Assembly (NCBI RefSeq): GCF_004216565.1
Contig: NZ_SGWV01000008.1
Coordinates: 496,001-560,000 of the forward strand
Length of the DNA: 64,000 nt
Reading direction: 5' to 3'
Source of the DNA: Sphaerotilus mobilis
GTDB taxonomy: Bacteria; Pseudomonadota; Gammaproteobacteria; Burkholderiales; Burkholderiaceae_C
Position 1 is the first letter of the stretch. Each line of letters begins with the position of its first letter. Below are positions 18,701-45,357 of the stretch, in pieces. Both the position numbers and the translations under genes were made by a program. The notes under the pieces were generated by a model. It searched no databases. It had not been told where the DNA came from and saw nothing but the letters and a program-made list of their open reading frames with translations.

Positions 18701-19464
18701 TCAGCGCCTACCAGGACCGCGCCTGGGCCCAGCGCTACGAGGCCCGCGTGCGCGCGGTCGAGCAACAAGAGCGGGCCCTCGGACTGGACGACACACTGCC
18801 GCTGAGCCGCGCCGTCGCCCGCGCCGTGCGGCCGCTGATGGCCGTCAAGGACGAATACGAGGTGGCGCGGCTCTACAGCGATCCGGCCTTTCGCCAGCAA
18901 CTGCGCGAGCACTACGAGGGCGAGCCCGGCGTCGACTACCGGCTGGACTTCCTGATGGCCCCGCCGCTGCTGTCACGCCTCGGCGCGGACGGCCGCGCGC
19001 CACGCAAGCTCGTCTTGTCCGATCGCTGGATGCGCCCGCTGCTGTCCGCCTTGCAGCACGGCAAGGTCCTGCGCGGGCGCTGGTTCGACCCCTTCGGCCA
19101 CAGCGCCGAACGGCGGGCCGACAGAGCCTTGCTGCACGCCTTCGAGGCCCGCATCGACGAGCTTCTGGGCGGGCTGGCAGCCGATGCCGCACCGGCCTCC
19201 GCAGGGGCCGCGCTGGACCCCGCCTCCGAAGGCGCCGCGCCGGACCCGGCGGCTCGGCGACGCCGCCTCGCGCTGGCCGTCGAGATCGCACGCCTGCCGC
19301 AGCAGGTGCGCGGCTACGGTCACGTCCGCGCGGCACAGCTCGCCGCCGCGCAGCAACGCGAGGCCGAGCTGCTGCACCGCTGGGACCGTCGGCGCTACCC
19401 GCTGCCAGCCCGCGCCCAGGCTGCGACGGGTCAGCTGGCCGGCATCCGGGTGGTGTCGGGCTGA
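15718..19464 (+). CDS. Indolepyruvate ferredoxin oxidoreductase family protein, fused subunits
   Basis: 1248 aa. It should oxidatively decarboxylate aryl- or branched-chain 2-oxo acids to acyl-CoA, passing electrons to ferredoxin. The N-terminal part resembles the alpha subunit (GFISGYRGSPLGQLDQE). Next is a thiamine-diphosphate region (FCAGCPHNSST, GDGTYYHSG, NDAVAMTGGQP), then a four-Cys cluster site (CEGCGDCG...C) near residue 660, then the gamma/beta-type domain (TGVGGTGVVTVGALVAMAA) and a C-terminal DUF6537-like part. Two linkers have tandem low-complexity sequence (near residues 965-985 with repeated EPE, and near 1155-1180 with PASAGAALDP/PASEGAAPDP). Likely controlled by the divergent Lrp protein. 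Confidence 0.9.
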   Translation: MPTLARPDYRLADRYDAASGVVFLSGTQALLRLALTQRALDAARGWQTAGFISGYRGSPLGQLDQEASKAKDTLAAAGIRVLPAINEELGATQVLGSQRVESDPARRVDGVFGLWYGKGPGVDRAGDAIRHGNAYGSSPHGGVLVVAGDDHGCVSSSMPHQSDEVLMAWRLPVLQAADVSELIEFGLYGWALSRYSGAWVGLAALSEVVESSATVDLDAIHARVAGWADADAVAARSGHVAPADGLHLRWPDLPSLRLETRLADKLDAVRAFARINPIDREVIVSPQARVGIVSCGKAHADLMEVLRRLAITPDTLAAIGLRLYKVGLAWPVEPTRLTAFAEGLDEILVIEEKAGVVEGQLRELLDHAYAHRPERRPRLIGKRDAAGRPLLPAHGELRPSRLIEPVAHWLAAHFPDEPRLGDPRELLVHLRDFTPPALLHNAADAVRRLPYFCAGCPHNSSTVVPEGSHARAGIGCHFMANWMDRDTAGLIQMGGEGIDWIAHAPYTDTPHVFQNLGDGTYYHSGSLAIRQAVAASVATGVSITYKILFNDAVAMTGGQPVDGPISVDAIARQVDSEGVREVAVLSDDLSRYDGIRHRFPAGTTFHDRHELDAVQRRLREVRGVTVLIYEQTCAAEKRRRRKKGQMAAAPRLLHIHAPVCEGCGDCGVQSNCVALLPQETALGRKRRIDATACNQDERCADGFCPSFVALRGARLRRRVGAADGAARQALLDAVAALPDASAHDWNGAPWDLLVTGVGGTGVVTVGALVAMAAHLQGLRASVLDFMGFAQKGGAVLSFVRLAATPQALNQVRIDSQQADAVLACDLVVACAPEALQAVRHGRTRVLVNTHEVPVADSVRQPDAQLPVADLLAKLRHAAGDTQVRTFDAQALAEAGLGDTVTANVLALGHAWQMGLVPLELAALQQAIALNGVAVPANQLAFALGRLAAADPQACTRWLAGEATAPVGAPDREPERVPDHEPETLDGLLALGIAHLSAYQDRAWAQRYEARVRAVEQQERALGLDDTLPLSRAVARAVRPLMAVKDEYEVARLYSDPAFRQQLREHYEGEPGVDYRLDFLMAPPLLSRLGADGRAPRKLVLSDRWMRPLLSALQHGKVLRGRWFDPFGHSAERRADRALLHAFEARIDELLGGLAADAAPASAGAALDPASEGAAPDPAARRRRLALAVEIARLPQQVRGYGHVRAAQLAAAQQREAELLHRWDRRRYPLPARAQAATGQLAGIRVVSG

Positions 19465-19500
19465 GCCGCGCCGGGCGGTGCGCGAGCAACGTGACCACAT

Positions 19501-20781
19501 TCAATAGGCCCAGTCGACCGCCAGGCTGTAGAGCAGCACGGTGCGCTGGCCGGGTGGCAGTTGCGGCTCCAAAAACATCCCGGCCGGGCTGGTGCTGCGT
19601 GGTCGGATGCGATCGATCTGGGCTTTCAGCGCCAGCCCCGGCTGCAGGTCATGGCGCAGACCGAGTGCCAGCCGATGCTGGCCATCGCGTCTCTGCGAGG
19701 CTTGCAGGTCCGAGACGAGCTGGGCCGCCACGCCGCTGAAACGGCTCTCTTCGCGCGGATCGATGCCGCGCAAGCCGGACCAGCTCAGGTGCAGCAGCCA
19801 GTCTTGCCACTGTCGACCAACGGTCACGTAGGCACCCACGCTGCCAGGCAGGGCCCGGTTGTCCGAGCTGATGCGGGCGACTTCGGCTTGCAGCAACCAG
19901 GGACGGCCATCATGGCGAACGCCCAGGGACAGGAAACGCAGCCGCCGGATGTCACGCACGTCGTACTCGAGCGCCGCGACGGGATCGCCTCCCACCGCAG
20001 GCGCGCCCAGCAGGGCCAGTGCCTGCAGGACGGGCGATTGCGGACTCAGGCGCAGACGGGTGTGGGCCTGCGCGGCCATGGCCTGCCAGGTCCAGTCGGT
20101 GCCCAGCAGTTGCAGGCGCAGGCCGCCGATCGGGTGGTGCTCGACGGCCTGATCGCCCCGTCGCTCGCGATGGCGGGCAAGGTAGGCATCGACCTGCACG
20201 GTGCGGTCGACCTGCGACAGGCTACGGCGCAGCCAGACGCCATCGAGCGACGGCACTTGGCCGAGCTGGCCGTAGACCTCGGCCGGCGGTCGCACCCAGG
20301 GTTGGCTGAGGCCCAGACTGCGCTGCTCCGAGCCGAGGAACAAGGGTGAGCCGAACCGGCCGACCTTGAATGCCCAATCCGGCGCCGGCTTCCAATCGAC
20401 GTAGGCCCAGTCGACTTCGGCGCCCATGCGGTCGGTGCTGGTCTGCCGGCGCCACACGGGCTGCAGGGTCAGGTCCAGCCCAGGCCGCGCCTCGTAGCTG
20501 ATCTGGACGCCCAGCCGGCTGTCGTAGGAGCCGGTCCAGTTCGCACCGATGCCCGACGGCGCGGTGTTCTCCTGGCGCAGCTGCAGGCCGGCCGCATTCA
20601 GCCGGGCCATAGCCAGGGTGCCGAAGGTGTTGATGCGCCAGACCGGCGACGCGGCGGTGTTGTCCGTCTGCAGCGTCGGCGGCACTGGCTCCACCGCATC
20701 CTCACTGGCCTGTACCGACAGCAGGCTGCCGCTCAGGCAGGCGGCCAGCAGGGCCCAGCGAAACCGGCTTGCGCATCTCAT
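19501..20781 (-). CDS. Outer-membrane beta-barrel (porin-like) protein B, last gene of signalling operon
   Basis: 426 aa. Signal peptide (residues about 1-25, ending VQA), then alternating aromatic/polar strands and a C-terminal Tyr (VDWAY), the usual end of an outer-membrane barrel. It is a clear paralogue of the product of 21257-22534. Both contain NTFGTL near the N-terminus, a WTG..DSRLG segment, GLSQPWVR, EVYG.LGQV.SLDG, and WAY at the end. No named family is recognised; porin-like is inferred from strand pattern and ends. Its ATG overlaps the stop of the PstS-like gene by ATGA. Confidence 0.75.
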   Translation of the reverse strand: MRCASRFRWALLAACLSGSLLSVQASEDAVEPVPPTLQTDNTAASPVWRINTFGTLAMARLNAAGLQLRQENTAPSGIGANWTGSYDSRLGVQISYEARPGLDLTLQPVWRRQTSTDRMGAEVDWAYVDWKPAPDWAFKVGRFGSPLFLGSEQRSLGLSQPWVRPPAEVYGQLGQVPSLDGVWLRRSLSQVDRTVQVDAYLARHRERRGDQAVEHHPIGGLRLQLLGTDWTWQAMAAQAHTRLRLSPQSPVLQALALLGAPAVGGDPVAALEYDVRDIRRLRFLSLGVRHDGRPWLLQAEVARISSDNRALPGSVGAYVTVGRQWQDWLLHLSWSGLRGIDPREESRFSGVAAQLVSDLQASQRRDGQHRLALGLRHDLQPGLALKAQIDRIRPRSTSPAGMFLEPQLPPGQRTVLLYSLAVDWAY

Positions 20782-21269
20782 CGCGTGTCTCCCGAGCTGT
20801 ACACGACACGCAGGCCACGCAGGTCCAGGCGGCCCGCGTCGGCGGCCGGGATGTAGGCAAGATGGGCCGTTGCGGACTCGCGCAGCCGACCCAGCGCCGA
20901 CGCCAGGTCCAGCCGCGCGGGCGGTCGCCCACCGCCGCTGAACACCATGCGCGACCAGTAGGCATGCATCTGCACCGGACTGCGGCCGAGCACCTGCAGG
21001 TAGAAGGCGTCCCGGAGCGCGTCGTCCAGCGCGTCGATGACGGTGACGGGCGTGCCGTCATCCAGCGTCGAGCGGGTGCGCAAGAACAGCGCGCCGACCT
21101 CGCCGCGGCCCAGGCTGGCCACCCGCAGATCGGCACGCGCCAGCACCAGCAAGCCGCGTTCCGCAAAGCCCTGAGCCCGCAGTCCTGACGCAGGCAAGAG
21201 GGACAACATCGACAGGGCCCGCAAAGCCCGACGCCGCCCGACGATGGCGCGAGTCGTCAGTAGGCCCAT
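20778..21269 (-). CDS. Small periplasmic PstS-like substrate-binding protein
   Basis: 163 aa. A signal peptide with basic start (RRRALRALSMLSLLPA, ending LRA) is followed by a short domain resembling half of a phosphate-binding (PstS/PBP-like) protein: FLRTRSTLDDG, DALRDAFYLQVLG, RSPVQMHAYWSRMVFSGGGRPP. No ABC transporter is encoded beside it. It sits between two porin-like genes, overlapping each (13 bp and 4 bp), and downstream of a histidine kinase, so a sensory role as ligand presenter to the kinase is more likely than transport. The ligand is unknown. Confidence 0.72.
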   Translation of the reverse strand: MGLLTTRAIVGRRRALRALSMLSLLPASGLRAQGFAERGLLVLARADLRVASLGRGEVGALFLRTRSTLDDGTPVTVIDALDDALRDAFYLQVLGRSPVQMHAYWSRMVFSGGGRPPARLDLASALGRLRESATAHLAYIPAADAGRLDLRGLRVVYSSGDTR

Positions 21270-22534
21270 TCGATCACCATGCTGATCAACCAGAGATCAC
21301 GTTGCCCCTCGGGCAGCACCGCCACACCTGCACCCGCACCGCTGTCGACCACCGTCAGACCGCCACGGCCTTCGCGGCGTGGGCGCAGGCGGTCGAGCTG
21401 GGCCTTCCATGCGAGGCCCGGCGCGAGGTCGTGGCGCAGCCCGACGCCGAGCGTGGTCTGGCCGGCCTCGCGCGCCGGCGCGAGAAACAGCTCCGCCGTC
21501 GCCGCTGCGGGCGAGCCGGGTAGCAGCCGGTTCTCACTGCCCGGATCACGCCCGCGCAACCAGGCCGCCGTGGCGTAAGGTGTCCAGGCCCCCCAGGTGC
21601 GACCCAGCGTCAGGTAGCCGGCAGTGCTGCCCGGCAGGGACTTCAGGCGCGAACGGCCGTGGGCCAGTTCGGCCATCAAGAGCCAAACGCTGTCCTCATG
21701 GCGCGCGCCCAGGCTGAAGAACCAGATCGGATCGAGCCGCCGCAGGTCGTAGTCGGCCACCGCCGAGGCATCGCCTCCGAGGCCCGGATCGCCCACGATC
21801 GCCAGAAAAGGCTCGATCGCATCCAGCTGGATGGTCGAGCGCGAGCGGGCCACCATCGCCTGCCAGGTCCAGCGCTCGTCCTGCAGGCGCAGACCAAGGC
21901 CGCCGATCTGCCGATGGCTGACGGCCAGGCCGCTTCGGCGGTCGACATGTCGCGCCAGGTAGCCGCTCACCGACAGCGTCTGTTCACCCAGCGGCACACC
22001 GTGACGCAGCCACAAGCCGTCGAGGGAATCGACCTGCCCCAGCAGACCGTAGACCTCGTGGGGAGCCCGCACCCAGGGCTGAGACAGGCCGGCCTGTCGC
22101 TGGTCGGAGGCCAGGTAGAGCGGCGACATGTAGCGGCCGATCTTCAGGTCCCAGTTGGGCGCCTGTTGCCAGCCGACATGGGCCCAGTTCGTACGGAGCC
22201 AGACGCGGCCGTTGTCCTGCTCTCGCACGACGCCCTGCCAGGTCAGGTCCAGGCGCTCACTCAGACGCATGCCGAGCTGCGCCCCGAGGCGGCTGTCGAC
22301 CGCGCCGGTCCAGCGCCGCCCGATGCCTGCGCTGGCGACGCTGTCAGCGCGCCAGCTGGTGCCTTCGAGATGGCTCCGCGCCAGCCCGAGCGTGCCGAAG
22401 GTGTTGACCTGCAACTCGCCCGCATCGACCGGATTGCCCTCCGGCCGCGTCAGCGGAACCGCCGTGGCGCAGCCCACCGCCAGCCCTGCAGCCAGGAGGG
22501 CGACAGCAGACAGCGACGCGGGGCTCATCCTCAT
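21257..22534 (-). CDS. Outer-membrane beta-barrel (porin-like) protein A
   Basis: 425 aa. The N-terminal export signal is hydrophobic (VALLAAGLAVGCATA). The Cys sits in a poor lipobox, so cleavage by signal peptidase I is more likely. The body has amphipathic strands and ends IEWAY. It is similar along its whole length to the 426-aa barrel at 19501-20781, showing a duplication. Its start overlaps the kinase stop (ATGA at 22531-22534) and its end overlaps the PstS-like start, so expression is coupled to the signalling genes. Confidence 0.75.
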   Translation of the reverse strand: MRMSPASLSAVALLAAGLAVGCATAVPLTRPEGNPVDAGELQVNTFGTLGLARSHLEGTSWRADSVASAGIGRRWTGAVDSRLGAQLGMRLSERLDLTWQGVVREQDNGRVWLRTNWAHVGWQQAPNWDLKIGRYMSPLYLASDQRQAGLSQPWVRAPHEVYGLLGQVDSLDGLWLRHGVPLGEQTLSVSGYLARHVDRRSGLAVSHRQIGGLGLRLQDERWTWQAMVARSRSTIQLDAIEPFLAIVGDPGLGGDASAVADYDLRRLDPIWFFSLGARHEDSVWLLMAELAHGRSRLKSLPGSTAGYLTLGRTWGAWTPYATAAWLRGRDPGSENRLLPGSPAAATAELFLAPAREAGQTTLGVGLRHDLAPGLAWKAQLDRLRPRREGRGGLTVVDSGAGAGVAVLPEGQRDLWLISMVIEWAY

Positions 22535-24174
22535 GACGGATCGCCCAGATCGCTGCTGGCGCTGGCGTGCGTGCCCACGTCGATTGGCAGCACGATCTCG
22601 ACCTGCGTGCCCAGGCCCGGTTGGCTGCGCACCTCGATCTGACCCTGCAGCAGCCCGACAACGATGTTGTGAACGATGTGCATGCCCAGGCCGCTGCCGC
22701 CCCGACCCAGCCGGGTCGTGAAGAAGGGGTCGAAGATGCGGTGCAGCGTGGCCTCGTCCATGCCGTGACCGTCGTCCGTGAAGGTCAGTCGGACCCGCTG
22801 CTCATCGATCCGGTGGGCGCTGATGTGCATCACGCCCGGCTGATCGGCATCGAAGGCATGCAGCAAGGCGTTGTTGTAGAGGTTGTTGATCACCTGCCCG
22901 AGCGGACCGGGATAGCCGTTCATCCGGACATCCGGTTCGAGGTCGGTCTCGACCTGGATCGGCCGGTGCTTGAGCGCCGGGGCCAGCGTCGTCAGGATGT
23001 CCTGCAGCGTGCGGGCCAGATCATGGTGGCGACGCTTCGAGCTGGTCTGGTCGATCGCCACATGCTTGAAGCTGGTAATCAGCTCGCTGGCCTTGAGCAG
23101 GTTGCGCAGCAGCAGTTCGGCCGCCTCGGCGCTGTCGGTCAGGAACTGTTCGAGCGTCTGACGCTGCAGTCGCGCGCGGGCCTGCTCGTCGAACACCCGG
23201 GCCTTGTGGGCATAGCCGGTCGCCACCGTCAGCGCATTGCCGATCGGCGTGTTCAGTTCATGGGCCACCGCCGCGACCAGCGAGCCCAGGCTGGCGAGCT
23301 TCTCCGACTGCACCAGGCTGGCCTGCAAGCGGCGCAGGTCGGCCAGCGTCTGTTCGAGGTGGTGGTTGGCGGTGAGGAGCTCGGCGGTGCGTTGCTCGAC
23401 ACGGGCCTCCAGCGCTTCATTGAGTTCACGCACCGCAGCCTGGCTGGACTCGAGCTCACGGATGCGACTGCGTGCGGCGGCGGCCATGCGGTTGAAGACC
23501 CGGGCCAGCAGCGTCAGCTCGTCATGACCCTCCTCGCGCACCGACTGTTCGTAGTCGCCCTTGGCCATGCGCGTGCCGGCATCGGTCAGGCGATTCAGGC
23601 GCTGGCCGAGCCGGCGCAACAACAAGGCCAGCACCAGCACCAGCGCCAGCGCCAGCAGGCCATAGGTGATCAGGTTCTGGCGCTTGAGGCGGTCCGAGGC
23701 ATCGCGCAGCAAGGTCGACGACAGGCCGTAGCGCAGCCGGCCGACCTGTTGGCCGCCCAGCAAGATGTCCTGTTCCAGGTGCAGCAGCCCGCGCGTCCAC
23801 GCGCCCGCGAGATCATGGTCGACCGGCGGCAGCACAGCCGGGACCGCGTCGGTGCGGGCCAGCTCGCGGCCGCGTTCGTCCAGCAGCACGAGGTAGAGCA
23901 CGCCGCCACCTTGCGGCGTGACCAACTCCTGCAAGTAGGGCTGGATGCGCGCCAGCGTCTGCGACGACTCGGTGTGAGGTGCCAGCGCCAGGTTGAGCGT
24001 CTGTGCGACCTGAGCAGCGGCCAGCCGGCTGCTCTCCAGCGCGACCTCCTCCAGCACCCGCCGGGTGTTGACGCTCACCAGCGCAAAGATCGTGCTGAGG
24101 AACACAAACGCGCCCGCACCCAGACGCAGGCGCAAGGAACGCCACAGCGGCGGCGCGTTCAGCGATTGGGGCAT
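22531..24174 (-). CDS. Membrane sensor histidine kinase
   Basis: 547 aa. Two membrane segments (about 18-37 and 169-187) enclose a ~130-residue periplasmic sensor region. HAMP follows (about 188-240), then a coiled coil (about 240-295), HisKA with catalytic H305 in AHELNTP, and an ATPase with N-box N430/N434-435, DDGHG at 467-471 and GRGGSGLG at 490-497. All kinase motifs are intact. The partner is almost certainly the REC-EAL protein encoded 9 bp upstream in the same operon. The sensor fold is not identified by eye. Confidence 0.9.
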   Translation of the reverse strand: MPQSLNAPPLWRSLRLRLGAGAFVFLSTIFALVSVNTRRVLEEVALESSRLAAAQVAQTLNLALAPHTESSQTLARIQPYLQELVTPQGGGVLYLVLLDERGRELARTDAVPAVLPPVDHDLAGAWTRGLLHLEQDILLGGQQVGRLRYGLSSTLLRDASDRLKRQNLITYGLLALALVLVLALLLRRLGQRLNRLTDAGTRMAKGDYEQSVREEGHDELTLLARVFNRMAAAARSRIRELESSQAAVRELNEALEARVEQRTAELLTANHHLEQTLADLRRLQASLVQSEKLASLGSLVAAVAHELNTPIGNALTVATGYAHKARVFDEQARARLQRQTLEQFLTDSAEAAELLLRNLLKASELITSFKHVAIDQTSSKRRHHDLARTLQDILTTLAPALKHRPIQVETDLEPDVRMNGYPGPLGQVINNLYNNALLHAFDADQPGVMHISAHRIDEQRVRLTFTDDGHGMDEATLHRIFDPFFTTRLGRGGSGLGMHIVHNIVVGLLQGQIEVRSQPGLGTQVEIVLPIDVGTHASASSDLGDPS

Positions 24175-24183
24175 CGCTGCGCC

Positions 24184-26424
24184 TCAGGCGTCAGCGACGC
24201 CGTCGACGCGGCGCCGAGCCAGCCAGTCGCACAGGGCGTCCAGGCCCATCGGACGAGCCCGCAGATAGCCCTGGGTCGCGTCGCAGCCCAAGCCACGCAG
24301 GAAGTCTTCCTGCTGCAGCGTCTCGACGCCTTCGGCCAGCACCTCCAGCCCGATCAGGCGACCGAGTGACACGATGGTGCGGACGATGTCCTCGCCCCGT
24401 CGGCTGCAACCGATCTCATGGACAAAGCTGCGGTCGATCTTGAGCAGGTCCACCGGCATGTGCTGAAGGTAGGCCAGCGACGAGAAGCCGGTGCCGAAGT
24501 CGTCAAGCGCCACACGCATGCCGCGTTCACGCAGCGCATGCAGGCGCGGCAGCAATTGGTCGACCTCCTGCATCGCCAGCGATTCGGTCAGCTCGATCTC
24601 GACCTGCTGCGGCTGCAGTCCATGGCGCCGCGCCGCCGCGTCCAAGTGTCCCAGCAAGGCGTTGTCACGCCACTGCGCCAGCGACACATTGATCGCCATC
24701 CGCAGCGGCAGACCGGTGCGACGCTGGAGTTGCGCCAACTGCGCACAGGCCTCGTCGATGACCCAGGTGCCCAGCGGCAGGATCAGGCCGGTGCTCTCGG
24801 CCACCGGAATGAACTCAGCGGGTGACACGCCAGACTCGTCACCCCAGCGCAGCAAGGCCTCGACACCCAGCACCTCGCCGTCACTCAGGCGGATCTGAGG
24901 CTGCAGGACCAGCCGGAAGGCCTGTTGCTGCAAGCCGGCATGCAGGGCCCGCGACAACGACGCCCGGCGCAGGGCCGCCCGGCCCATCTCGGGGTGATAC
25001 CGGACATACCCCGGGCGCCGCTCGCGCTTGGCGCTCTTCAGGGCGGTGAAGGCCGCCGCCAGCAAGGTCGCCGGCGCGGCGCCGCTCAGGTCGGCACGGC
25101 GGGCCAGACCGCCACACATCGACAGGCGGATCGGCAGGCCGTCAACGTCGAACTCGGCGTCGCACAGGGTCTGCAGCAGACCTTGCCCCAACTGCTCGGC
25201 CGGGCCGTGCAGGGCGAACACATCGCCGCCAAACCGCACCACCGTCATCGGCTGAACGTCCGGCAGGCTCAGCAGCCGCTGGGCCACGCTGCGCAGCAGC
25301 AGGTCGCTGCCCGTCGGTCCGAGCGTTTCGACGTGGGTGTTGAAGTCGTCGATGTCGATCAGCAAGAGCGCGCTGTCGTCGTCCGGAAACGGTGCCTCGC
25401 CCATGCGCTGCAGCAGCCGCAAGCGGCTGGGCAGGCCGGTCAGCGCGTCCACGAAGGCGGTGCGCTGCAGTTGTTCGAGCATGCTCAGGTTGTCCGAGCA
25501 CAGCGCGACGTTCTCGGTGAAGATCTCCAGCAGTTCGCGCAGGCTGGCGTCCACCTCGTCGGCGGTGTCCATGAACACCGCCAGCTGGTGCCGTTGGCTG
25601 CGGCAATGCAGCGCACAACCAAGCGGCCCGTATATGTTGCGGCCCTCTCTGAGGGCTTGAACCAGCTGGTCGCGGACCTGGGCCGGCTCGATCGCATCGA
25701 TCGAGCCATTGAGCAGTCCTTGGTAGTGGCCGCTGGCGGCGACCACCTGCAGGTCCGTCGCCGGATGCGAGGTCGGTCGCCCCAGCGCGGTCGGACTGAT
25801 GACCACCAGGCCGCGTTGTTCGCCCAGAGACAGGAATGCGCCGAGCTGGGTCAGCACGCCACCGGCGAAGCGTTGTAGGCCGTCGCTGCTGAGCAGGTCA
25901 CGCGTGGCCTGGATGATCTGGGACAGTCCGCGCTGGCTGGCCTCGATGCGGCGGATCTGCTCGAAGCTGCGCAAGGCGCTGATGAGAGAGGTGACCAGAC
26001 GCGTCTGCGTCAGCTCGCTCTTGGTTCGGTAGTCGTTGATGTCATAGCGCGAGATGACCTCCAGCTCGGGCGCATAGCCGGGCTGGCCGGTTCTCAGGAT
26101 GATGCGCACCCCTTGCAGGCCAAGCTCACGGCGGATCGTGTGGATCAGGTTCAGGCCGGCGTCGGACTGCTCCATGACGACATCGAGCAGCACCACTGCG
26201 AAGTCGGTGTCTGCCTGCGACAGCATGTCCCGAGCCTGGGCCGCGCTGTAGGCGCTGTGCAGGCTGACCTGCCGGCCCAGCAACTGCTGACCACGCAGCA
26301 CGAAGCGGGTCGCCGAATGGACCTCCGGGTCATCGTCGACGACCAGAACGTGCCAGAACGGCTGGGGCCGCTGCGGCGCGTCATCGTTGTGCAGGGGGAT
26401 CAGGTCGTCGGGGTCGGAAATCAT
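24184..26424 (-). CDS. Response regulator: REC - DUF3369 - degenerate GGDEF - EAL (c-di-GMP phosphodiesterase)
   Basis: 746 aa. REC domain (about 24-155) with acidic cluster D30-D32, phosphoacceptor D81, T112 and K135. DUF3369 follows (about 165-315). The GGDEF-like domain (about 320-480) has FGGDVF at 398-403 instead of GGDEF, so cyclase activity is unlikely. The EAL domain (about 490-740) keeps E522, N579, E611, D641/D642, K662, E698 and Q718, so it should hydrolyse c-di-GMP. First gene of a five-gene operon with the kinase, two barrel proteins and a PstS-like protein. Start 26424 fits the REC length. Confidence 0.9.
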   Translation of the reverse strand: MISDPDDLIPLHNDDAPQRPQPFWHVLVVDDDPEVHSATRFVLRGQQLLGRQVSLHSAYSAAQARDMLSQADTDFAVVLLDVVMEQSDAGLNLIHTIRRELGLQGVRIILRTGQPGYAPELEVISRYDINDYRTKSELTQTRLVTSLISALRSFEQIRRIEASQRGLSQIIQATRDLLSSDGLQRFAGGVLTQLGAFLSLGEQRGLVVISPTALGRPTSHPATDLQVVAASGHYQGLLNGSIDAIEPAQVRDQLVQALREGRNIYGPLGCALHCRSQRHQLAVFMDTADEVDASLRELLEIFTENVALCSDNLSMLEQLQRTAFVDALTGLPSRLRLLQRMGEAPFPDDDSALLLIDIDDFNTHVETLGPTGSDLLLRSVAQRLLSLPDVQPMTVVRFGGDVFALHGPAEQLGQGLLQTLCDAEFDVDGLPIRLSMCGGLARRADLSGAAPATLLAAAFTALKSAKRERRPGYVRYHPEMGRAALRRASLSRALHAGLQQQAFRLVLQPQIRLSDGEVLGVEALLRWGDESGVSPAEFIPVAESTGLILPLGTWVIDEACAQLAQLQRRTGLPLRMAINVSLAQWRDNALLGHLDAAARRHGLQPQQVEIELTESLAMQEVDQLLPRLHALRERGMRVALDDFGTGFSSLAYLQHMPVDLLKIDRSFVHEIGCSRRGEDIVRTIVSLGRLIGLEVLAEGVETLQQEDFLRGLGCDATQGYLRARPMGLDALCDWLARRRVDGVADA

Positions 26425-26499
26425 GCGTCAAGTCAAGAAAGACTGCTTGGGAATCTAGCATGAGCCTTTCCAGCCGCCTCCCCGCACCGCGGCGGTGCG

Positions 26500-26539
26500 C
26501 AGCCTGCGTACACGTCGGACGTGAAAAAACAGCCTGCGT
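26500..26539. promoter_or_regulatory. Palindrome flanked by direct repeats upstream of the signalling operon
   Basis: CACGTC-G-GACGTG at 26511-26523 is a perfect palindrome followed by AAAAAA. It is flanked by direct repeats CAGCCTGCGT at 26500-26509 and 26530-26539 (30-bp period). It lies about 80 bp before the EAL gene start and about 65 bp after the TlpA-like gene, both on the - strand. A TGCTAGATT extended -10 on the - strand is near 26459. An operator role is inference. As a terminator the T-run would be on the wrong side. Confidence 0.35.
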
Positions 26540-26604
26540 TCTGTCAATTCCTGCCAGGCCTTCCCGTTCCTGAACGTTCCAGGCCGTTCGGGCCGAGACC
26601 GGCC

Positions 26605-27213
26605 TCAGCCGCGCGCGCCGCGTTCGGTCGCCTGCACGATGGCCGACTCCAGCACAGACTGATCGGCCGGGCGGAAGCCCTCGTGTTGCAGCAGCACCCG
26701 GCCGTCGGCCCCCACCAATACGCTGGTGGGCATGGCGCGGGCGCCCCAGCGGCGCGGGGTGTCGCCGCTGGCGTCGAAGGCGATGCGGAAGCTGGGTGGG
26801 AACTGGCGCAAGAAAGCGTCGGCGTCGGCCCGTTCGCGGTCGACGTTGACCGCGACGATTTGCAGGCCGCGCGGCCCGTGGCGCTGCTGCATCAGGTTCA
26901 TCCACGGGAAGCTCTGGCGGCAAGGTCCGCACCAGGAGGCCCAGAAGTCGACCAACACGACCCGGCCCTTCAGGGCCGGCGAGCTGGCCAGGTCCAAGGT
27001 GCCGTCCAGGCTGGGCAGGGACAGCGCCGGGGCCGGGCTGCCGACGGTGGCGGCCTGCGCGGTGCCGGTCAGGAACGGCAGGCCGGCGAGTGCGACAGCG
27101 CCCCCGCAGGACTGGCGCAGCAGCGCGCGGCGGTTGAGGGTCGGCTCGGTCACGGACCGGTCGGTGGACAGGTTCAAGCTCAGGTTCAGGCTCTGGTTCA
27201 GGCTCAGATTCAT
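26605..27213 (-). CDS. TlpA-like thiol-disulfide oxidoreductase, Tat-exported
   Basis: 202 aa. The N-terminus is a repetitive Asn/Leu/Ser stretch (12-nt repeats), followed by a twin-arginine signal (NRRALLRQSCGGAVALAG). Mature protein: redoxin fold with the active site WASWCGPC, MNLMQQRHG, and the cis-Pro loop AMPTSVLVG. It should reduce or oxidise thiols in the periplasm. The start ATG at 27213 overlaps the apbE stop (ATGA). As the last gene of the DUF4266-DUF3570-ApbE operon it may act on the Cys-containing small lipoprotein; this is inferred from context. Confidence 0.85.
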   Translation of the reverse strand: MNLSLNQSLNLSLNLSTDRSVTEPTLNRRALLRQSCGGAVALAGLPFLTGTAQAATVGSPAPALSLPSLDGTLDLASSPALKGRVVLVDFWASWCGPCRQSFPWMNLMQQRHGPRGLQIVAVNVDRERADADAFLRQFPPSFRIAFDASGDTPRRWGARAMPTSVLVGADGRVLLQHEGFRPADQSVLESAIVQATERGARG

Positions 27214-28235
27214 GGGGTGCTTCCTTGAGGATTTGGGCCGCCCGGCTCGCGCTGCACCCAGTGCGGCACGCCCTGGGCTGCCAGCCAATCTTCGGCATGG
27301 GGGCCTTGCAGCATGGCCAGCGTCGACAGCACGCCCGCCTCGCTGCAGGTCGGGGCGGCCACGGTGACCGAACGCGGCGCGCCGATTACCGGCCAGCCGG
27401 TGCGGGGGTCGAGGATGTGGCCGTAGCGCACGCCCTCACGGTGGATGAAACGGCGCGCATCGCCGCTGGTGGCCAGGCCGCCGACCCGCAGGTCGAGCAG
27501 GCCGGCGCTGTGTGCCGCCGCGCCATCGGCGGGCTGGGGCGCATCCGGCCGCTCGATGCCGACCCGCCAGGCGCTGCCGTCCTGACGCGGTCCGCTGGCC
27601 GCCAGATCGCCACCGAAGTTCACGAGCAGCGCAGGGGCCACGCAGCCCAACTGCCCGGCTTGCTGCAGCAGCAGGCCGAGCACGCGGTCGACCGCGTATT
27701 CCTTGCCGATGCCGCCCAGGTCCAGCTCCATGCCGGCCGGCACGCGCAGACGTGGCCGCTGCCAGTCGATGCGGTGCCAGCCGACGTGGGCTCGCAAGGC
27801 CTCGACCGCGCCGGGTTCGGGCAGGCGGTCGCTGCCGTCGAAGGTCCAGGCCCGCCGCAACACGCCGCTGCTGATGTCGAACAGGCCACCGCTCAGGGCA
27901 TGGCACTGGGCGGCGAAGTCGATCAACAGGGCGCTTTCCTCGTCCAGCGTGTGCCAGACATCGGCTTGGGCCTGCCAGCGCGAGACCACGCTGTCGGCCC
28001 GGTAGCGGCTGAACTTCTGCTCGATGCGGCGGGCTTCGGCCTGCGCGGTCTGCAGCAGCGCGCGGGCCTGCGCCTGCGTGACGCCTTCGAGCAGCACCTC
28101 GCACGGGCTGGTCATGGCCTGGAAGCGCCCCCGCCAGCCGCCGGGCACGGCCTGCGGCTCGGGCGGCTCGGGAAGCTCGGGCGGCGCCGTCAGATCGAAC
28201 GGCTGGACGGGTTCGGCCACGGCAGCGAGGCTCAC
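27210..28235 (-). CDS. apbE: FAD:protein FMN transferase (ApbE family)
   Basis: 341 aa from GTG 28235, which overlaps the DUF3570 stop as GTGA. ApbE moves FMN from FAD to a Thr/Ser of exported target proteins. Family motifs: LDLGGIGKEYAVDR, LLVNFGGDLAASG, GGLATSGDARRF and GHILDPRTGWPV. No ordinary signal peptide or lipobox is evident at the chosen start, whereas many ApbE proteins are exported; the start could be elsewhere or the enzyme may act in the cytoplasm. The nearest candidate targets are the operon partners, though a classic flavinylation motif is not obvious in them. Confidence 0.85.
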   Translation of the reverse strand: MSLAAVAEPVQPFDLTAPPELPEPPEPQAVPGGWRGRFQAMTSPCEVLLEGVTQAQARALLQTAQAEARRIEQKFSRYRADSVVSRWQAQADVWHTLDEESALLIDFAAQCHALSGGLFDISSGVLRRAWTFDGSDRLPEPGAVEALRAHVGWHRIDWQRPRLRVPAGMELDLGGIGKEYAVDRVLGLLLQQAGQLGCVAPALLVNFGGDLAASGPRQDGSAWRVGIERPDAPQPADGAAAHSAGLLDLRVGGLATSGDARRFIHREGVRYGHILDPRTGWPVIGAPRSVTVAAPTCSEAGVLSTLAMLQGPHAEDWLAAQGVPHWVQREPGGPNPQGSTP

Positions 28236-29584
28236 CAGTTGAAGCGGTAGCCGGCGGTCAGCATCGTCGCCGTCAGGCCGGGGGCGATCGGCAGGCCCTG
28301 CAGCACGCCCGGTGCGTTGGCGGGCGTGGCCTGGACCTGGCGGTAGACCTCGCCCCGCAGCGTCAGCTCGCCGCCCCAGGACAGCGGCTGGCCCCAGGTC
28401 AGGCCCAGCGTGTTGCCGCTGAACTTGGCCAGCCGCGGATCGGCGGAAGCGGCCGACAGCGTGGTGCTGTGACCGGTGCTGTCCCAGTCCTGGCCGTCGA
28501 CCAGCCAGCCGCGCCAGAAGTCGGCCGCGCTCTGGCGGTGATGGCGCCAGCGCGGCTCGAGGTAGCGACCGCCGCCCAAGTTGACGCGCCAGCGTGCGTC
28601 CAGGGTGTGCGAGCGCACGCCCCAGTCGTCGCGGTAGCCGCGCCAAGACAGGTCGAGCACGTCGCGCGCCAGATGGACCTTGTGGCCCCAGTACAGCGAG
28701 GTGCGGCTGCGCGAGTCCGGCCGGCTTTCATGCACATAGCGATCGCCCGCCAGCAGGCCGGTGCTGCCGTCGACCACCGACAGGATCTTGTAGGGATCGC
28801 TGTGTTCGCCGCTGCCCCGGCCGAGGCCCAGGTTCACCTGCATCAGCCAGCGCCGGTTCATCACCTGCGTGAGGCCCAGCAGCACATCGGCCACGTTGCG
28901 GCTGCCATTGCCCAGGCGCGGGCCGTTGGCCGAGGCCACGCTCAGGCCCACCGGCGTGCCGCCGACCGGGCGCATCTGGTTGGCTTCGAGCGCCAGGCCC
29001 AGGCTCAGCGTGGTGTTGCGGCCGTCGAGGTCATGGGCGACGGCCAGGCTGGTGCCCAGCGAGGTGAAGTCGTATTCCTGCGAGAAATTGCCACCGACCG
29101 ACAGCCGGGTCATGCGTCCGAGCGGGCGTTCATAGCCCACCGACAGGGCACCGCGGGTGTCCTTGAAACTCGGGTCCAGCGGCGTGCTGCCGGCGGCGGT
29201 CGTGTAGCTCTGGTTGCCGGACGGCGAGGTGAAGGTCTGCGCGCCCGGTTGTGCCACCGCGCCGTTGGGCGAGGCGCCGGTCAGCGTGTCAACGGTCAGC
29301 TTGAGCGACAGCGTGTGGTCGTCGGCATCGGTGCGGCGCAGCGCGATGACCGGCTCGACGGCCTTCACCCGGCCGCCGTTTTCGGCATAGAGCAGCACGG
29401 CGCTGTCGACCTGCCAGGGCACGCGGGCGGTGGGGCTGGCGGGTGCGTCCGCTGCCGCCTGGGCCAGCGGTGCGACCGGCGCCAGCAGGGCCGCGACGGC
29501 CGTGCCCAGCGCCAGCCGCAGGGCGGGACGGGCGGCCGAAGCTGCGGTCGTCGGGCTCGGGTTCGGGTGTGAGGTCAGTTGCAT
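28232..29584 (-). CDS. DUF3570 outer-membrane beta-barrel protein
   Basis: 450 aa. A long N-terminal export signal (hydrophobic part LALGTAVAALLAPVAPLAQA) is followed by many amphipathic strands and a C-terminal aromatic (YRFNW). Features such as VDSAVLLYAENGGRVKAVEP near the mature N-terminus and RRTDADDHTL match DUF3570. Members of this family occur beside DUF4266 lipoproteins and ApbE. It starts inside the DUF4266 gene (10-bp overlap), so translation is coupled. Role unknown; a pore or anchor for a redox protein at the surface is an inference. Confidence 0.85.
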   Translation of the reverse strand: MQLTSHPNPSPTTAASAARPALRLALGTAVAALLAPVAPLAQAAADAPASPTARVPWQVDSAVLLYAENGGRVKAVEPVIALRRTDADDHTLSLKLTVDTLTGASPNGAVAQPGAQTFTSPSGNQSYTTAAGSTPLDPSFKDTRGALSVGYERPLGRMTRLSVGGNFSQEYDFTSLGTSLAVAHDLDGRNTTLSLGLALEANQMRPVGGTPVGLSVASANGPRLGNGSRNVADVLLGLTQVMNRRWLMQVNLGLGRGSGEHSDPYKILSVVDGSTGLLAGDRYVHESRPDSRSRTSLYWGHKVHLARDVLDLSWRGYRDDWGVRSHTLDARWRVNLGGGRYLEPRWRHHRQSAADFWRGWLVDGQDWDSTGHSTTLSAASADPRLAKFSGNTLGLTWGQPLSWGGELTLRGEVYRQVQATPANAPGVLQGLPIAPGLTATMLTAGYRFNW

Positions 29585-29826
29585 CCACAGCCCCCGCCAC
29601 CAAAGCCGCGACCGCCGGTGGCCGCTTCTTTGCTGAAGTAGATGTGGTCGTCGTAGGCGGCCTGCAGCGCGTCGTTGCCGGGCTGCATCTCGGGCTTGGC
29701 GAGCAGGTCACGCTCCCAGGGTTCGACGCCCCAGGTGATGCCCGACTGCGCGCAGCCGCCCAGCAGGGCGGCCAGGCTGGCACCGAACAGTGCCCGTCGT
29801 GTGGAACGGAGGAATCTGGATGTCAT
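29575..29826 (-). CDS. Small DUF4266 lipoprotein with C-terminal CGCN
   Basis: 83 aa. Signal peptide with lipobox ALLGG-C25, so the mature chain is about 59 aa and lipid-anchored. The body has GVEPWERDLLAKPEM and the tail GGRGFGGGGCGCN. The Gly-rich Cys-Gly-Cys end is the hallmark of the family and suggests metal binding, disulfide chemistry or modification. First gene of the operon; the last codons overlap the DUF3570 start. A start at 29826 gives a standard lipoprotein signal. Confidence 0.85.
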   Translation of the reverse strand: MTSRFLRSTRRALFGASLAALLGGCAQSGITWGVEPWERDLLAKPEMQPGNDALQAAYDDHIYFSKEAATGGRGFGGGGCGCN

Positions 29827-29963
29827 CGTCACTGCAGCGACCGCATGGGTCACGCTCCGGTTTCGGGAAGACGCCGAGATTCCGGGCCCAAGGTGAAGGC
29901 AGACTGAACTTTTCGCGGGCCCCACCGGCAAGGTGCGTCCAGTCGTGACGAGCTTGACGTGGA

Positions 29964-31368: not shown

Positions 31369-32544
31369 TCAGGCCAGCGGTTCGGGCTGACCGGCCAGCG
31401 CGACGTGGCGCGCCTCGACCGACGGGTGGCGCGCGACGCCGACGGCATCGAGCGGGCGATCGGCCTTGCTGGAGAAACGGAACATCGGCGCCTTCCAAGG
31501 CTGGTGCGCCGGGCCCAGTGGGTTGCCGGGATGGCACTGCGCCAGGTCGTCGGCGATGGACACCCCCAGCGCGCGCAGCTCACCGGCCATCCAGTTCAGG
31601 GCGATGTTGGACAGCCCGCTCTCCTCGCCGGCCGGATAACCGCCACCGACGTCCGCATGGGCGCCGGCAAACTGCAGCTGTCGGATGTTCGGGTGCGAGG
31701 CATCCCACAGCGTGGGCGTGAAGTCCACCCGCCGCTCGCCCCGCGCCACCGCATGCAAGCCGTGCTCGACCTTGGGGCTGAGCGCGTTGTCGGCGAACTG
31801 GTAGCGGTCGCGGCGGATTTGGCCCTGGTAGTCGGGCAGGCCCAGCGAGCCCACGGTGTCCCAGACCGCCACGGCACGGATCGACGGCACCGGCACGAAG
31901 TCCTTGTCCGTCAGCGCATCCCGGTCGAAGAAGGCGCCGATGTGTGCCAGCGACTCCGCCAGCCGGGCGCGCCAGTCGACGTCCTGGCTGCGGTTCTGGC
32001 GATGCCGGTACCAGGCTTTGGCCCCTGCCTGGTAGGCGGCCTCCTTCGGCTGCGTCAAGCCCTTGCGCAACAGGCCTTGGCCGGCCACCAACCCGGCCAG
32101 GGCACGGGCGGTGTAGGCCCCACGGCTGAAGCCGATGATGACGATGGCGTCGCCGGGCTCGTAGTGGCGCGACAGGAAGGTGTAGCCACGCACGATGCGC
32201 TTGATGATCCCCGCGCCAAAGGTGCCGCCGAACAGCGTGCTGATCGGCCCGCCAGCGTCGCCCACACCGTGGATGTAGCGGGCGCGCTGGAGCTCCACGC
32301 CGTCGACCGTCAGGACCTTCTCCTGCTCGTCGGCTTCCGGCTCGTCGCGGCCGACCGGCACGCCGTCGAGGGCCTGGTAGAGCTTGAGCACGTTGGTGAT
32401 GCCGTCCTGCTTGCGTTCCTTCTCGTCAGGACCTTCCGGGACGGGGCTCGTCAGGTCGTCCGGCTGGACCAGCGGTCGGGGCGCGTCGTCGTCGTCGGGT
32501 CCGTTCCAGGTGCCATCGGCACAGAACACCAGGGTCTTGGGCAT
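31369..32544 (-). CDS. DUF2235 alpha/beta-hydrolase (T6SS Tle1-like phospholipase family)
   Basis: 391 aa. The start at 32544 (MPKTLVFCADGTWN) is standard; a longer start adds ten residues. The catalytic elbow is GFSRGAYTARALAGL (GxSxG-like with Ser nucleophile), preceded by YIHGVGDAGG and GGTFGAGI. DUF2235 members are hydrolases and some are type VI secreted phospholipases. Here there is no VgrG, Hcp or immunity gene beside it, so housekeeping or cryptic use is equally possible. It is convergent with the ParB-like gene. Confidence 0.82.
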   Translation of the reverse strand: MPKTLVFCADGTWNGPDDDDAPRPLVQPDDLTSPVPEGPDEKERKQDGITNVLKLYQALDGVPVGRDEPEADEQEKVLTVDGVELQRARYIHGVGDAGGPISTLFGGTFGAGIIKRIVRGYTFLSRHYEPGDAIVIIGFSRGAYTARALAGLVAGQGLLRKGLTQPKEAAYQAGAKAWYRHRQNRSQDVDWRARLAESLAHIGAFFDRDALTDKDFVPVPSIRAVAVWDTVGSLGLPDYQGQIRRDRYQFADNALSPKVEHGLHAVARGERRVDFTPTLWDASHPNIRQLQFAGAHADVGGGYPAGEESGLSNIALNWMAGELRALGVSIADDLAQCHPGNPLGPAHQPWKAPMFRFSSKADRPLDAVGVARHPSVEARHVALAGQPEPLA

Positions 32545-32726
32545 CTTGTCTTGCTCCTGCGAGACGCCGGCCACGCTGGCCGGTCGGCTCGGGGACTGTC
32601 GCCCCGCGTGCGTGGCAGCGTCAACACGGCCGCAGCGGTCCTACCCTGAAAGAAGGAGGGAAAACCGCACGGACGGCCTCGCGGCGTGCGGGCTTGCGTG
32701 CGGGTTGATGTGCGCGCCGCAGCCCG

Positions 32727-37659: not shown

Positions 37660-38130
37660 ATGGCCCAGCACCCTGCCCTCCACACGCCCGCGATCCAGCG
37701 CTGCGCGCTGACCCTGCTGCTCGGTGCGGCGATGCTGTCCAGCCCCGCAGCGCGGGCCGACAGCGGCATCGAGCGATCTGCCGACGCCACCGACCTGAAC
37801 GTCAGCCTGCGCCTGCACCTCGGCCCGCTCAGCCGCCGCAGCATCGAGGTCGGCACCCTGCTCCACGCCGAAACCGGCCATGAACGCCTCTATGCCTACG
37901 TCGACCTGCAGGACCGCCTGCCGCTGCCGGTGCGCCGGGTGCTGCGTCAGGTCGACGGCGGCATCACGGTCGAAAGGGGCACTGCCAGCCTGGCCCCCGA
38001 GGCACGCAGCCTGAACCGCAGCAACCTGGGGTCGATGCTGCGCTGGCGCCTGCAAGACGGCACGCAGGTCGCCATCAAATTACGTCAGCGGAAGGCGGGC
38101 TTGCAGTTCACGGTACCGATGCAACTGTGA
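37660..38130 (+). CDS. Small exported protein, unknown function
   Basis: 156 aa from MAQHPALHTPAIQRC at 37660. The Sec signal peptide (CALTLLLGAAMLSSPAARA, cut before DSG) is good. The mature part (about 120 aa) is mixed alpha/beta with LRLHLGPLSRRSIEVGTLL and ERLYAYVDLQDRLPLPV; no family is recognised. It is divergent from ligA and convergent with the giant repeat protein. A GGACAG-ACGA-CTGTCC hairpin (38155-38170) follows it. Confidence 0.6.
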   Translation: MAQHPALHTPAIQRCALTLLLGAAMLSSPAARADSGIERSADATDLNVSLRLHLGPLSRRSIEVGTLLHAETGHERLYAYVDLQDRLPLPVRRVLRQVDGGITVERGTASLAPEARSLNRSNLGSMLRWRLQDGTQVAIKLRQRKAGLQFTVPMQL

Positions 38131-38223
38131 TCGGACCTTCACGGCCAGTACCCAGGACAGACGACTGTCCCGGACACTCGGCCCAACAACCGATGCCTAG
38201 GAAACGGGCCGGTCGCACCGACC

Positions 38224-44784: not shown

Positions 44785-45357
44785 TTTGTATCTCCCTCAA
44801 TTGGATGGCCGCAACAGGCACCCGCCTCACACCCGTCAGATGGTCAAGTCCGACATGACATTTGGACGGGCGAATCAAACCGCTGCACCCGAAGATCAAC
44901 CATTCGAGCCAGAACCCGCCGAACCTCGAAATGAATCATCACGCCGCTATGTTTCATTTCCATGAATTCAACAGCGACTGGCAGCCACTCAAAATAATGG
45001 TTTTTGATAGCAAGAATAAGTAGGGCGCACCTCGGACGGGCGAAGCAGATCACGGTGGCGTTGTGGGGGGATATCGCGACTGGGCGCACGGCGGGCCTGA
45101 TTGGCTGAAGCCATGGACTCAGGCCGATGCGGGTGACGCATCAGATGCGCTTGTGCGCCAAAGACCCGCCAACCGAGGCGGTATGGCCGTTCAGCGTTTG
45201 AATGAGATCAAACGCAGGGCCGAATCGCGCGACGACTTGACCGCCATGGCACTGCGAGGGCGCGAAAGGTCACGCGTCGTGGTCGATGCGTGTGTCGACT
45301 GGGCACCCAGGAAGCAGGACGCAGGATTCAGAAAAGGGGTTCCCTGAGCGCACAGAT
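44785..45357. other. Long intergenic region upstream of the giant repeat protein
   Basis: No convincing gene: an open frame at 45063-45347 has no SD, no recognisable fold and poor codon character. The part next to the giant gene is AT-rich (44925-45015) and probably holds its promoter. An inverted repeat GAAATGA (44928-44934) and TCATTTC (44954-44960) is a candidate operator. The distal part is GC-rich with small palindromes such as GCATCAGATGC near 45139. Nothing else is seen. Confidence 0.5.

Follow-up and report, generated by a model that had tools for sequence, protein, structure and literature searches.

Why should two outer-membrane barrels and a fragment of a periplasmic binding protein (PBP) be encoded together with a two-component system whose predicted output acts on cyclic di-GMP (c-di-GMP)? 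This question is raised by a five-gene operon at positions 19501-26424 of a 64,000-nucleotide stretch of DNA from Sphaerotilus mobilis (contig NZ_SGWV01000008.1, positions 496,001 to 560,000), the whole of which is called the window here. Its five genes, all on the - strand, are transcribed in the order response regulator (RR), histidine kinase (HK), barrel A, a small protein related to part of a PBP and termed here the half-PBP, and barrel B. An earlier reading, made from the sequence only, had treated these genes as one signalling unit, in which the barrels and the PBP-like protein supply or present a ligand to the kinase. The present analysis leads to a different division: the operon joins two blocks that also occur separately, HK with RR and barrel with half-PBP, and it is fairly probable that together they form a sensing line from the cell envelope to c-di-GMP.

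The block that sets this operon apart is the pair of barrel and half-PBP. Although a single-sequence scan of genome contigs with barrel A found no relative, profile and pattern searches did. In a sample of 150 genomes of the family, window included, 26 have the half-PBP and 29 a barrel A homologue, and an iterated profile detected a half-PBP homologue in all 40 of the stretches fetched around barrel matches (40 of 44 places). A pattern scan of a named genome collection, for which a 13-sequence half-PBP alignment was too variable and 8 closer sequences were usable, supplied the best 80 of 311 confirmed stretches, among them Roseateles, Paucibacter, Pelomonas, Thalassolituus, Teredinibacter, and Robbsia. 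The half-PBP profile matched in 70 of 300 genomes of the order and 71 of 398 of the phylum; these genome searches scored few candidates per genome (up to 13), so that the counts are lower bounds, and some weak matches, in frames of 274-302 aa, are probably whole PBPs. Two sets of loci were then compared: 113 that are unique by half-PBP sequence (the window, the family set, the named set, and three loci from the window's genus) and a further 60, hand-picked from the order and phylum searches and mostly high-scoring. The half-PBP has a barrel next to it in 106 of the 113 and 57 of the 60, as judged by barrel and half-PBP profiles that were seeded with the window proteins and iterated on the same loci as are counted. 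Among the seven exceptions in the larger set, one sequence begins inside the half-PBP at a contig end (L199), three have a barrel 740-770 bp away (L102, L105, L114), and in three no barrel was detected near the half-PBP (L160, L163, L224). Barrel and half-PBP are a conserved pair in Pseudomonadota.

What this pair stands next to is, in most cases, a gene for signal transduction. A signalling gene on the same strand lies within 2.5 kb of the pair in 80/113 loci and in 45/60 of the further loci, so that in most loci a relative of the solute-binding proteins (SBPs) is encoded beside a sensor. The density of signalling genes is 0.174 per kb near the pair versus 0.022 per kb at 4-8.5 kb in the 113-locus set, and 0.157 versus 0.027 per kb at 3.5-8.5 kb in the 60-locus set, that is, 6-8 times the density of the flanks. 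The outputs in the 113-locus set are chemoreceptors (47), GGDEF-EAL proteins (8), GGDEF proteins (7), class III cyclases (7), and SpoIIE (1), as well as kinases and RRs in various combinations, where one locus may count under several classes. Pfam matches on example loci have confirmed chemoreceptor, PAS-GGDEF, GGDEF-EAL, SpoIIE, hybrid kinase, REC-HD-GYP, and class III cyclase. At one locus (L227), a GGDEF-EAL protein whose periplasmic domain is CHASE8 (E 3.5e-11) has two barrels and two half-PBPs as neighbours. A tree of barrel plus half-PBP (163 rows, 124 with an output label) requires at least 27 changes among seven output classes, versus a mean of 51.6 when shuffled; outputs are inherited for a while and then exchanged repeatedly. 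The pair is also carried by plasmids, with 20 matches of which six were opened: a chemoreceptor adjoins it on three (Ideonella dechloratans and two from Pseudomonas aeruginosa), an EAL gene follows it on two (directly in Caballeronia, 2.2 kb on in a Comamonadaceae plasmid), and the sixth, from Pseudoalteromonas, has no signalling gene beside it.

Several particular arrangements were seen in passing. On the two P. aeruginosa plasmids (L350, L351) chemoreceptor, porin, and half-PBP lie in a row, the half-PBP being annotated as 'phosphate ABC transporter substrate-binding protein' or hypothetical. In Thalassolituus and relatives (L173, L174, L177, L179, L193, L209, L228) the pair comes after a class III nucleotide cyclase gene, which was Pfam-checked on L173. 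The gamma proteobacterium HdN1 has three barrel-half-PBP pairs in tandem (L202, 4869-10423). Two loci (L218, 1150-3905; L222, 9983-12759) have a protein of 588-607 aa between two half-PBPs; for the one in L222 (607 aa), Pfam gave no match at E 0.05. In L163 (9770-10402), where no barrel was detected nearby, the half-PBP overlaps a GGDEF-EAL gene.

Is the full set of five genes kept in the same way? A neighbourhood search across genomes, set beforehand as the test of this point, gave a divided answer: the pairing of barrel and half-PBP is kept, whereas the complete set is rare. In the other loci examined, no DUF3369 regulator was found beside barrel and half-PBP, the window alone having a REC-DUF3369-EAL protein there, and among 399 genomes of the family none besides the window's own gave a barrel A match above 117 bits, with at most four candidates scored per genome. 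Within the window's genus, a barrel match occurs in 4 of 13 genomes, and in the other three the half-PBP and barrel are accompanied by a hybrid kinase together with a REC-HD-GYP protein. This combination of hybrid HK, REC-HD-GYP protein, barrel, and half-PBP was found in five loci other than the window (L120, L130, L252, L253, L254), three of them from the window's own genus, and Pfam confirms the hybrid HK and the REC-HD-GYP protein for L130 and L254. In the output tree the window lies apart from the loci with HK and REC-HD-GYP, in no starred set, on a long branch whose place is unsure. The likeliest history is that the front end was fitted separately, on two occasions, to a kinase and a phosphodiesterase RR, one of the HD-GYP and one of the EAL type. 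The exact five-gene set is rare and perhaps limited to the species. In place of five genes conserved together there are two separately occurring blocks, and what is novel is the front end of two genes, which is exchangeable, rather than the exact set of five.

The back end is of a more familiar kind, and the sequence-only description of both of its proteins holds. All four domains of the RR are found by Pfam: REC (aa 26-137, with DDD at 30 and LLDV at 79), DUF3369 (147-319), GGDEF (323-470), and EAL (493-725). The GGDEF motif is degenerate (GGDVF), while the EAL domain (PF00563, E 7.3e-64) has complete motifs (EALLRW, NVS, ELTES, DDFGTG, LKIDRSF, AEGVE). The RR is thereby predicted to be a c-di-GMP phosphodiesterase. 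The HK is an intact membrane kinase with predicted transmembrane segments at 18-36 and 168-186, a periplasmic domain of about 130 aa between them that matches no recognised family, HAMP at 184-234, H305, and HATPase at 423-531. Pfam reports HAMP and HATPase_c, with HisKA below threshold (13.3 bits versus a cut-off of 26.9), and the H-box and ATP-binding motifs are all there (HELNTP, NNLYNN, DDGHGM, GRGGSGLGM); an HK bearing these motifs adjoins an RR bearing the REC aspartates, as in a two-component system. REC-DUF3369 matches occur in 37 of 150 family genomes. The window RR aligns through GGDEF-EAL at 36-44% identity in 27 of 30 DUF3369 loci, window included (one of the 27 is cut short, and leaving the window aside the figure is 26 of 29), and over REC-DUF3369 only in the remaining three. 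Of 59 DUF3369 places, window included, at least 25 have a homologue of the window HK no more than 7 kb away, a lower bound because the count drew on part of the kinase match list. Judged by these counts, kinase and REC-DUF3369 regulator are a common kind of pair.

What, then, is the half-PBP? The window protein has no Pfam family, no PHROGs family, and, from its sequence alone, no match to PstS. An AlphaFold2 model built from an alignment of 49 rows, window included, has a mean predicted local distance difference test (pLDDT) score of 87.3, and of about 96 over residues 41-160. The top Foldseek matches of this model are PstS proteins, and VIA-align places residues 38-163 onto residues 79-198 of a 4q8r chain (Z 11.9, 107 residues, root-mean-square deviation 2.6), with fits to equivalent stretches of other PstS chains as well; the matches listed in the structure comparison include no YfiR-like entry, which excludes nothing. 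The family profile also matches PstS chains (best E 2.9e-9), and TIGR02136 matches two relatives over a single stretch (positions 118-228 of 295 in L096 and 120-227 in L173), with 24.5 and 25.9 bits versus a cut-off of 206.6. The PstS-like alpha/beta lobe is thus found by model and by family profile, and to this extent the earlier naming of a PstS-like small protein stands. However, only one of the two lobes is there: the protein has 163 aa including its signal sequence, only residues 79-198 of the 241-residue PstS are matched, and the arrangement of two lobes with a hinge cleft is absent. In PstS domain II, RxDGSGT forms the anion loop. The family profile dqkegsavreeF aligns to the phosphate loop REDGSGTRDAF of 4q8r; the loop has accordingly become QxEGSAV in the family profile, and the window version (DALDDALRDAF) has decayed further, so that the anion loop of domain II is not retained. 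Model and profile together indicate that the half-PBP is domain II of PstS alone, with an altered anion loop. Because only one PstS lobe is present, it would be unable to form a two-lobed cleft by itself.

The two barrels, exported proteins like the half-PBP, are paralogues with 44% identity, and neither has a Pfam family at E 0.1. A model built from 36 aligned sequences, among them both barrels of the window, gives barrel A 16 strands (pLDDT 86.6, predicted template modelling score 0.84), which bears out its earlier description as porin-like. In VIA-align its best matches are OprP (2o4v, Z 26.6), OprO (4rjw, 26.5), and a mutant OprO (26.2), with general porins at 23.8 or less, whereas Foldseek, ranked by E-value, has general porins such as VhChiP at the top and OprP in 11th place. 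The Pfam family Porin_O_P (PF07396) is not reached, a relative in L091 scoring 16.0 bits versus a cut-off of 20.9, and the barrel of another relative, L094, matches Porin_4 (40.8 bits versus 27). The model has the 16-strand fold of OprP/OprO; general porins have the same strand number, and the fold alone is not decisive. Because the VIA-align, Foldseek, and Pfam placements split, the label OprP/OprO-like is limited to the modelled fold and makes no statement about the ligand.

The coordinates of the operon and of other features in the window are collected below.

Table. The five genes of the operon and other features in the window
Feature	Position	Strand	Description
RR gene	24184-26424	-	REC-DUF3369-GGDEF(degenerate)-EAL response regulator
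HK gene	22531-24174	-	membrane histidine kinase
Barrel A gene	21257-22534	-	signal sequence and predicted 16-stranded porin, C-terminal aromatic residue
Half-PBP gene	20778-21269	-	163-aa protein: signal sequence and one predicted alpha/beta lobe
Barrel B gene	19501-20781	-	paralogue of barrel A
Upstream cluster	26605-29961	-	DUF4266, DUF3570, ApbE, TlpA-like thioredoxin
Phospholipase gene	31372-32574	-	type VI secretion Tle1-like phospholipase catalytic domain (E 2.6e-62)
Low-GC segment	about 38001-46000		GC 0.58-0.62 in 2-kb bins versus 0.69 for the whole window; possible island

The five-gene operon itself is confirmed. All frames lie where the sequence-only reading had put them, with junctions of +9 bp (RR/HK), -4 bp (HK/barrel A), -13 bp (barrel A/half-PBP), and -4 bp (half-PBP/barrel B), and a chance arrangement is unlikely because barrel and half-PBP recur as a pair in homologues. 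Downstream, a convergent POR and DUF6537 gene ends 36 bp from the operon. In a scan of 19400-29700, no sigma-70-like promoter site was found, and there were three terminator-like sites versus 2.9 expected. The GC content at third codon positions is 0.84-0.87 in the operon, slightly below the 0.90-0.91 of three neighbouring genes, a difference that is not decisive for recent acquisition. Upstream, 180 bp separate the operon from the end of the thioredoxin-containing cluster, which has the same orientation.

In the sensing line that we propose, one or both OprP/OprO-like porins would let in or bind a solute from outside the cell (perhaps an anion), or would report the state of the outer membrane. 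The single-lobe PstS derivative in the periplasm would pass the state of the porin on by protein contact, and the periplasmic domain of the HK would read the half-PBP and/or the barrel, shifting the balance between kinase and phosphatase. Phosphoryl transfer from HK to REC would then switch the EAL domain and alter c-di-GMP, and this change would probably bear on the choice of motility versus attachment. We infer the physical contacts, a ligand, the direction of the effect, and the phosphorylation of this RR by this HK. Two versions of the middle step can be imagined: in a relay, the barrel or the sensor would complete the cleft of the half-PBP, which would activate the sensor; in a brake, the half-PBP would act like YfiR and be pulled to the outer membrane. 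The earlier idea of a ligand presented to the kinase by barrels and PBP fares partly well, as the pair is usually beside transducers and the combination with a kinase and a c-di-GMP phosphodiesterase RR recurs; in its simple form it is not established, given a single lobe that lacks the usual cleft and has an altered anion loop. A wider reading, which we put forward tentatively, holds that porin and half-PBP are a general, exchangeable outer-membrane front end of Pseudomonadota, in which the porin itself would be the receptor and the lobe would complete a binding or docking site only with the barrel or the sensor. Such a front end would have been fitted repeatedly to chemoreceptors, cyclases, phosphatases, and kinases, so that a single type of input would feed chemotaxis, c-di-GMP signalling, and cyclic-nucleotide signalling alike, the window being an independent fitting to a kinase and an EAL regulator.

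Some support for communication between barrel and sensor may come from co-divergence. In the 47 chemoreceptor-linked loci, distances between barrels correlate with those between receptor periplasmic domains more strongly than in any other combination (r 0.94, or 0.73 given the receptor's cytoplasmic part), and the residual correlation of half-PBP with barrel is -0.06 given the receptor's periplasmic domain. This would fit a specificity shared by barrel and sensor with the half-PBP as a more constant go-between.

A number of results weigh against the sensing line. When only the closer half of the pairs is taken, barrel and receptor correlate at 0.73, with no excess over the other combinations (0.64-0.83), and the co-divergence may reflect descent and rate. 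Many of the chemoreceptor loci are close relatives, so that their counts are not independent events. No same-strand signalling gene lies within 2.5 kb in 33/113 and 15/60 pairs, although at least four of these (L122, L126, L229, L232) have one next door on the opposite strand. Of the 75 same-strand neighbours of such pairs, the 45 scanned share no common family (the largest is SBP_bac_3, in four), and for this reason the pair may work alone too. The window's half-PBP is divergent (18-32% identity to 48 relatives). In addition, the periplasmic domain of its HK has no Pfam sensor family and no profile similarity to the sensors of the chemoreceptor, GGDEF, and SpoIIE types beside other pairs.

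The same findings can be read in other ways. If the half-PBP were a brake in the manner of YfiR, it would by default inhibit (or activate) an inner-membrane sensor, and engagement or stress of the porin would pull it away to the outer membrane; no soluble ligand would be carried. The three-compartment layout is that of YfiBNR, in which sequestration of YfiR from YfiN by YfiB is established (PMC4887326); a CHASE8 sensor stands beside the two pairs of L227, and a single PBP lobe with no other half of a ligand cleft and with a changed PstS anion loop would suit such a role. However, the barrels and half-PBPs that were scanned by profile match no YfiR or YfiB family, and only one of nine sensors scanned has CHASE8 above the cut-off. 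We consider this brake unlikely. A plain uptake cassette, in which porin and periplasmic protein import phosphate or another oxyanion and the signalling genes are adjacent through co-regulation, is more improbable. It would account for the best VIA-align matches, which are the phosphate and pyrophosphate porins OprP and OprO for the barrel and PstS for the small protein, and for the pairs with no signalling gene, but hardly for the loss of one PstS lobe, the change of RxDGSGT to QxEGSAV with further decay in the window, or the 6- to 8-fold enrichment of signalling genes. Furthermore, the partial domain tables of neighbours contain no Pst permease or ATPase, Pst genes not having been systematically looked for.

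Finally, an HK-RR pair of the ordinary sort may have come to share one transcript with a porin operon to which it is unrelated, in this species only and with no functional coupling. This explanation takes in its stride the failure to find the full set in other loci and genomes examined and the separate occurrence of both blocks. It is nevertheless very improbable in view of the overlaps of 4, 13, and 4 bp that tie HK, barrel A, half-PBP, and barrel B together, and in view of the habitual position of the front end beside transducers, including an HK and a phosphodiesterase RR in the same genus. Taken together, these considerations leave the envelope-to-c-di-GMP sensing line as the reading that we prefer.

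In the usual view, porins are pores with a passive role, and signals are received by proteins of the inner membrane, which sense conditions in the periplasm. A conserved porin with a single-lobe PBP, accompanying many kinds of transducers, would mean that Gram-negative bacteria have a widespread means of sensing their surroundings already at the outer membrane. Genes that now bear labels such as 'phosphate ABC transporter substrate-binding protein', 'porin', or 'hypothetical' would gain a function, and the input of orphan chemoreceptors and c-di-GMP enzymes would become testable by one deletion. No description of a porin, a single-lobe PBP, and a transducer together was found among the titles and abstract starts listed by full-text searches of open-access literature aimed at the cassette (subscription papers and preprints lay outside the scope).

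Among known systems, YfiBNR (TpbB) of P. aeruginosa and E. coli is close in plan: an outer-membrane part, a soluble periplasmic part, and an inner-membrane c-di-GMP enzyme act in line (PMC4887326). The operon is alike in this three-compartment layout, not in its parts. It has instead a porin, a PstS lobe, and a two-component phosphodiesterase output, which is exchangeable across relatives. The Pfam and NCBIfam matches of the five window proteins include no YfiR or YfiB family, and the DgcN/YfiN model matches the GGDEF part of the RR only (36.9 bits versus a cut-off of 325). One relative of the cassette, L227, has the CHASE8 type of sensor, and a CHASE8 diguanylate cyclase in a YfiBNR-like operon has been described (PMC8294551). 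PstS with OprP/OprO, which serves phosphate uptake, has the same two folds as the window pair, as judged by VIA-align and by the match to PstS domain II; the window pair differs in that half of PstS is missing, the anion loop is altered, and the genes are placed with signal transducers. The REC-DUF3369 front of the RR is common to VCA0210 of V. cholerae, a REC-DUF3369-HD-GYP protein that is an active phosphodiesterase (PMC4212101), where HD-GYP takes the place of the degenerate GGDEF and EAL domains of the window RR. What the cassette has in common with SBP-activated sensors is that a relative of PBPs, located in the periplasm, is encoded beside a chemoreceptor, kinase, or c-di-GMP enzyme. LuxP-LuxQ and NspS-MbaA are sensors of this type; they use whole two-lobed SBPs and are not known to have a dedicated porin. 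Activation of sensors by SBPs is a general mechanism (PMC9602780), and in the main text of that source neither 'porin' nor 'outer membrane' occurs. The component folds and SBP-activated sensors are thus known already; what did not appear among the open-access titles and abstract starts listed is an exchangeable front end made up of a dedicated porin and one lobe of a PBP.

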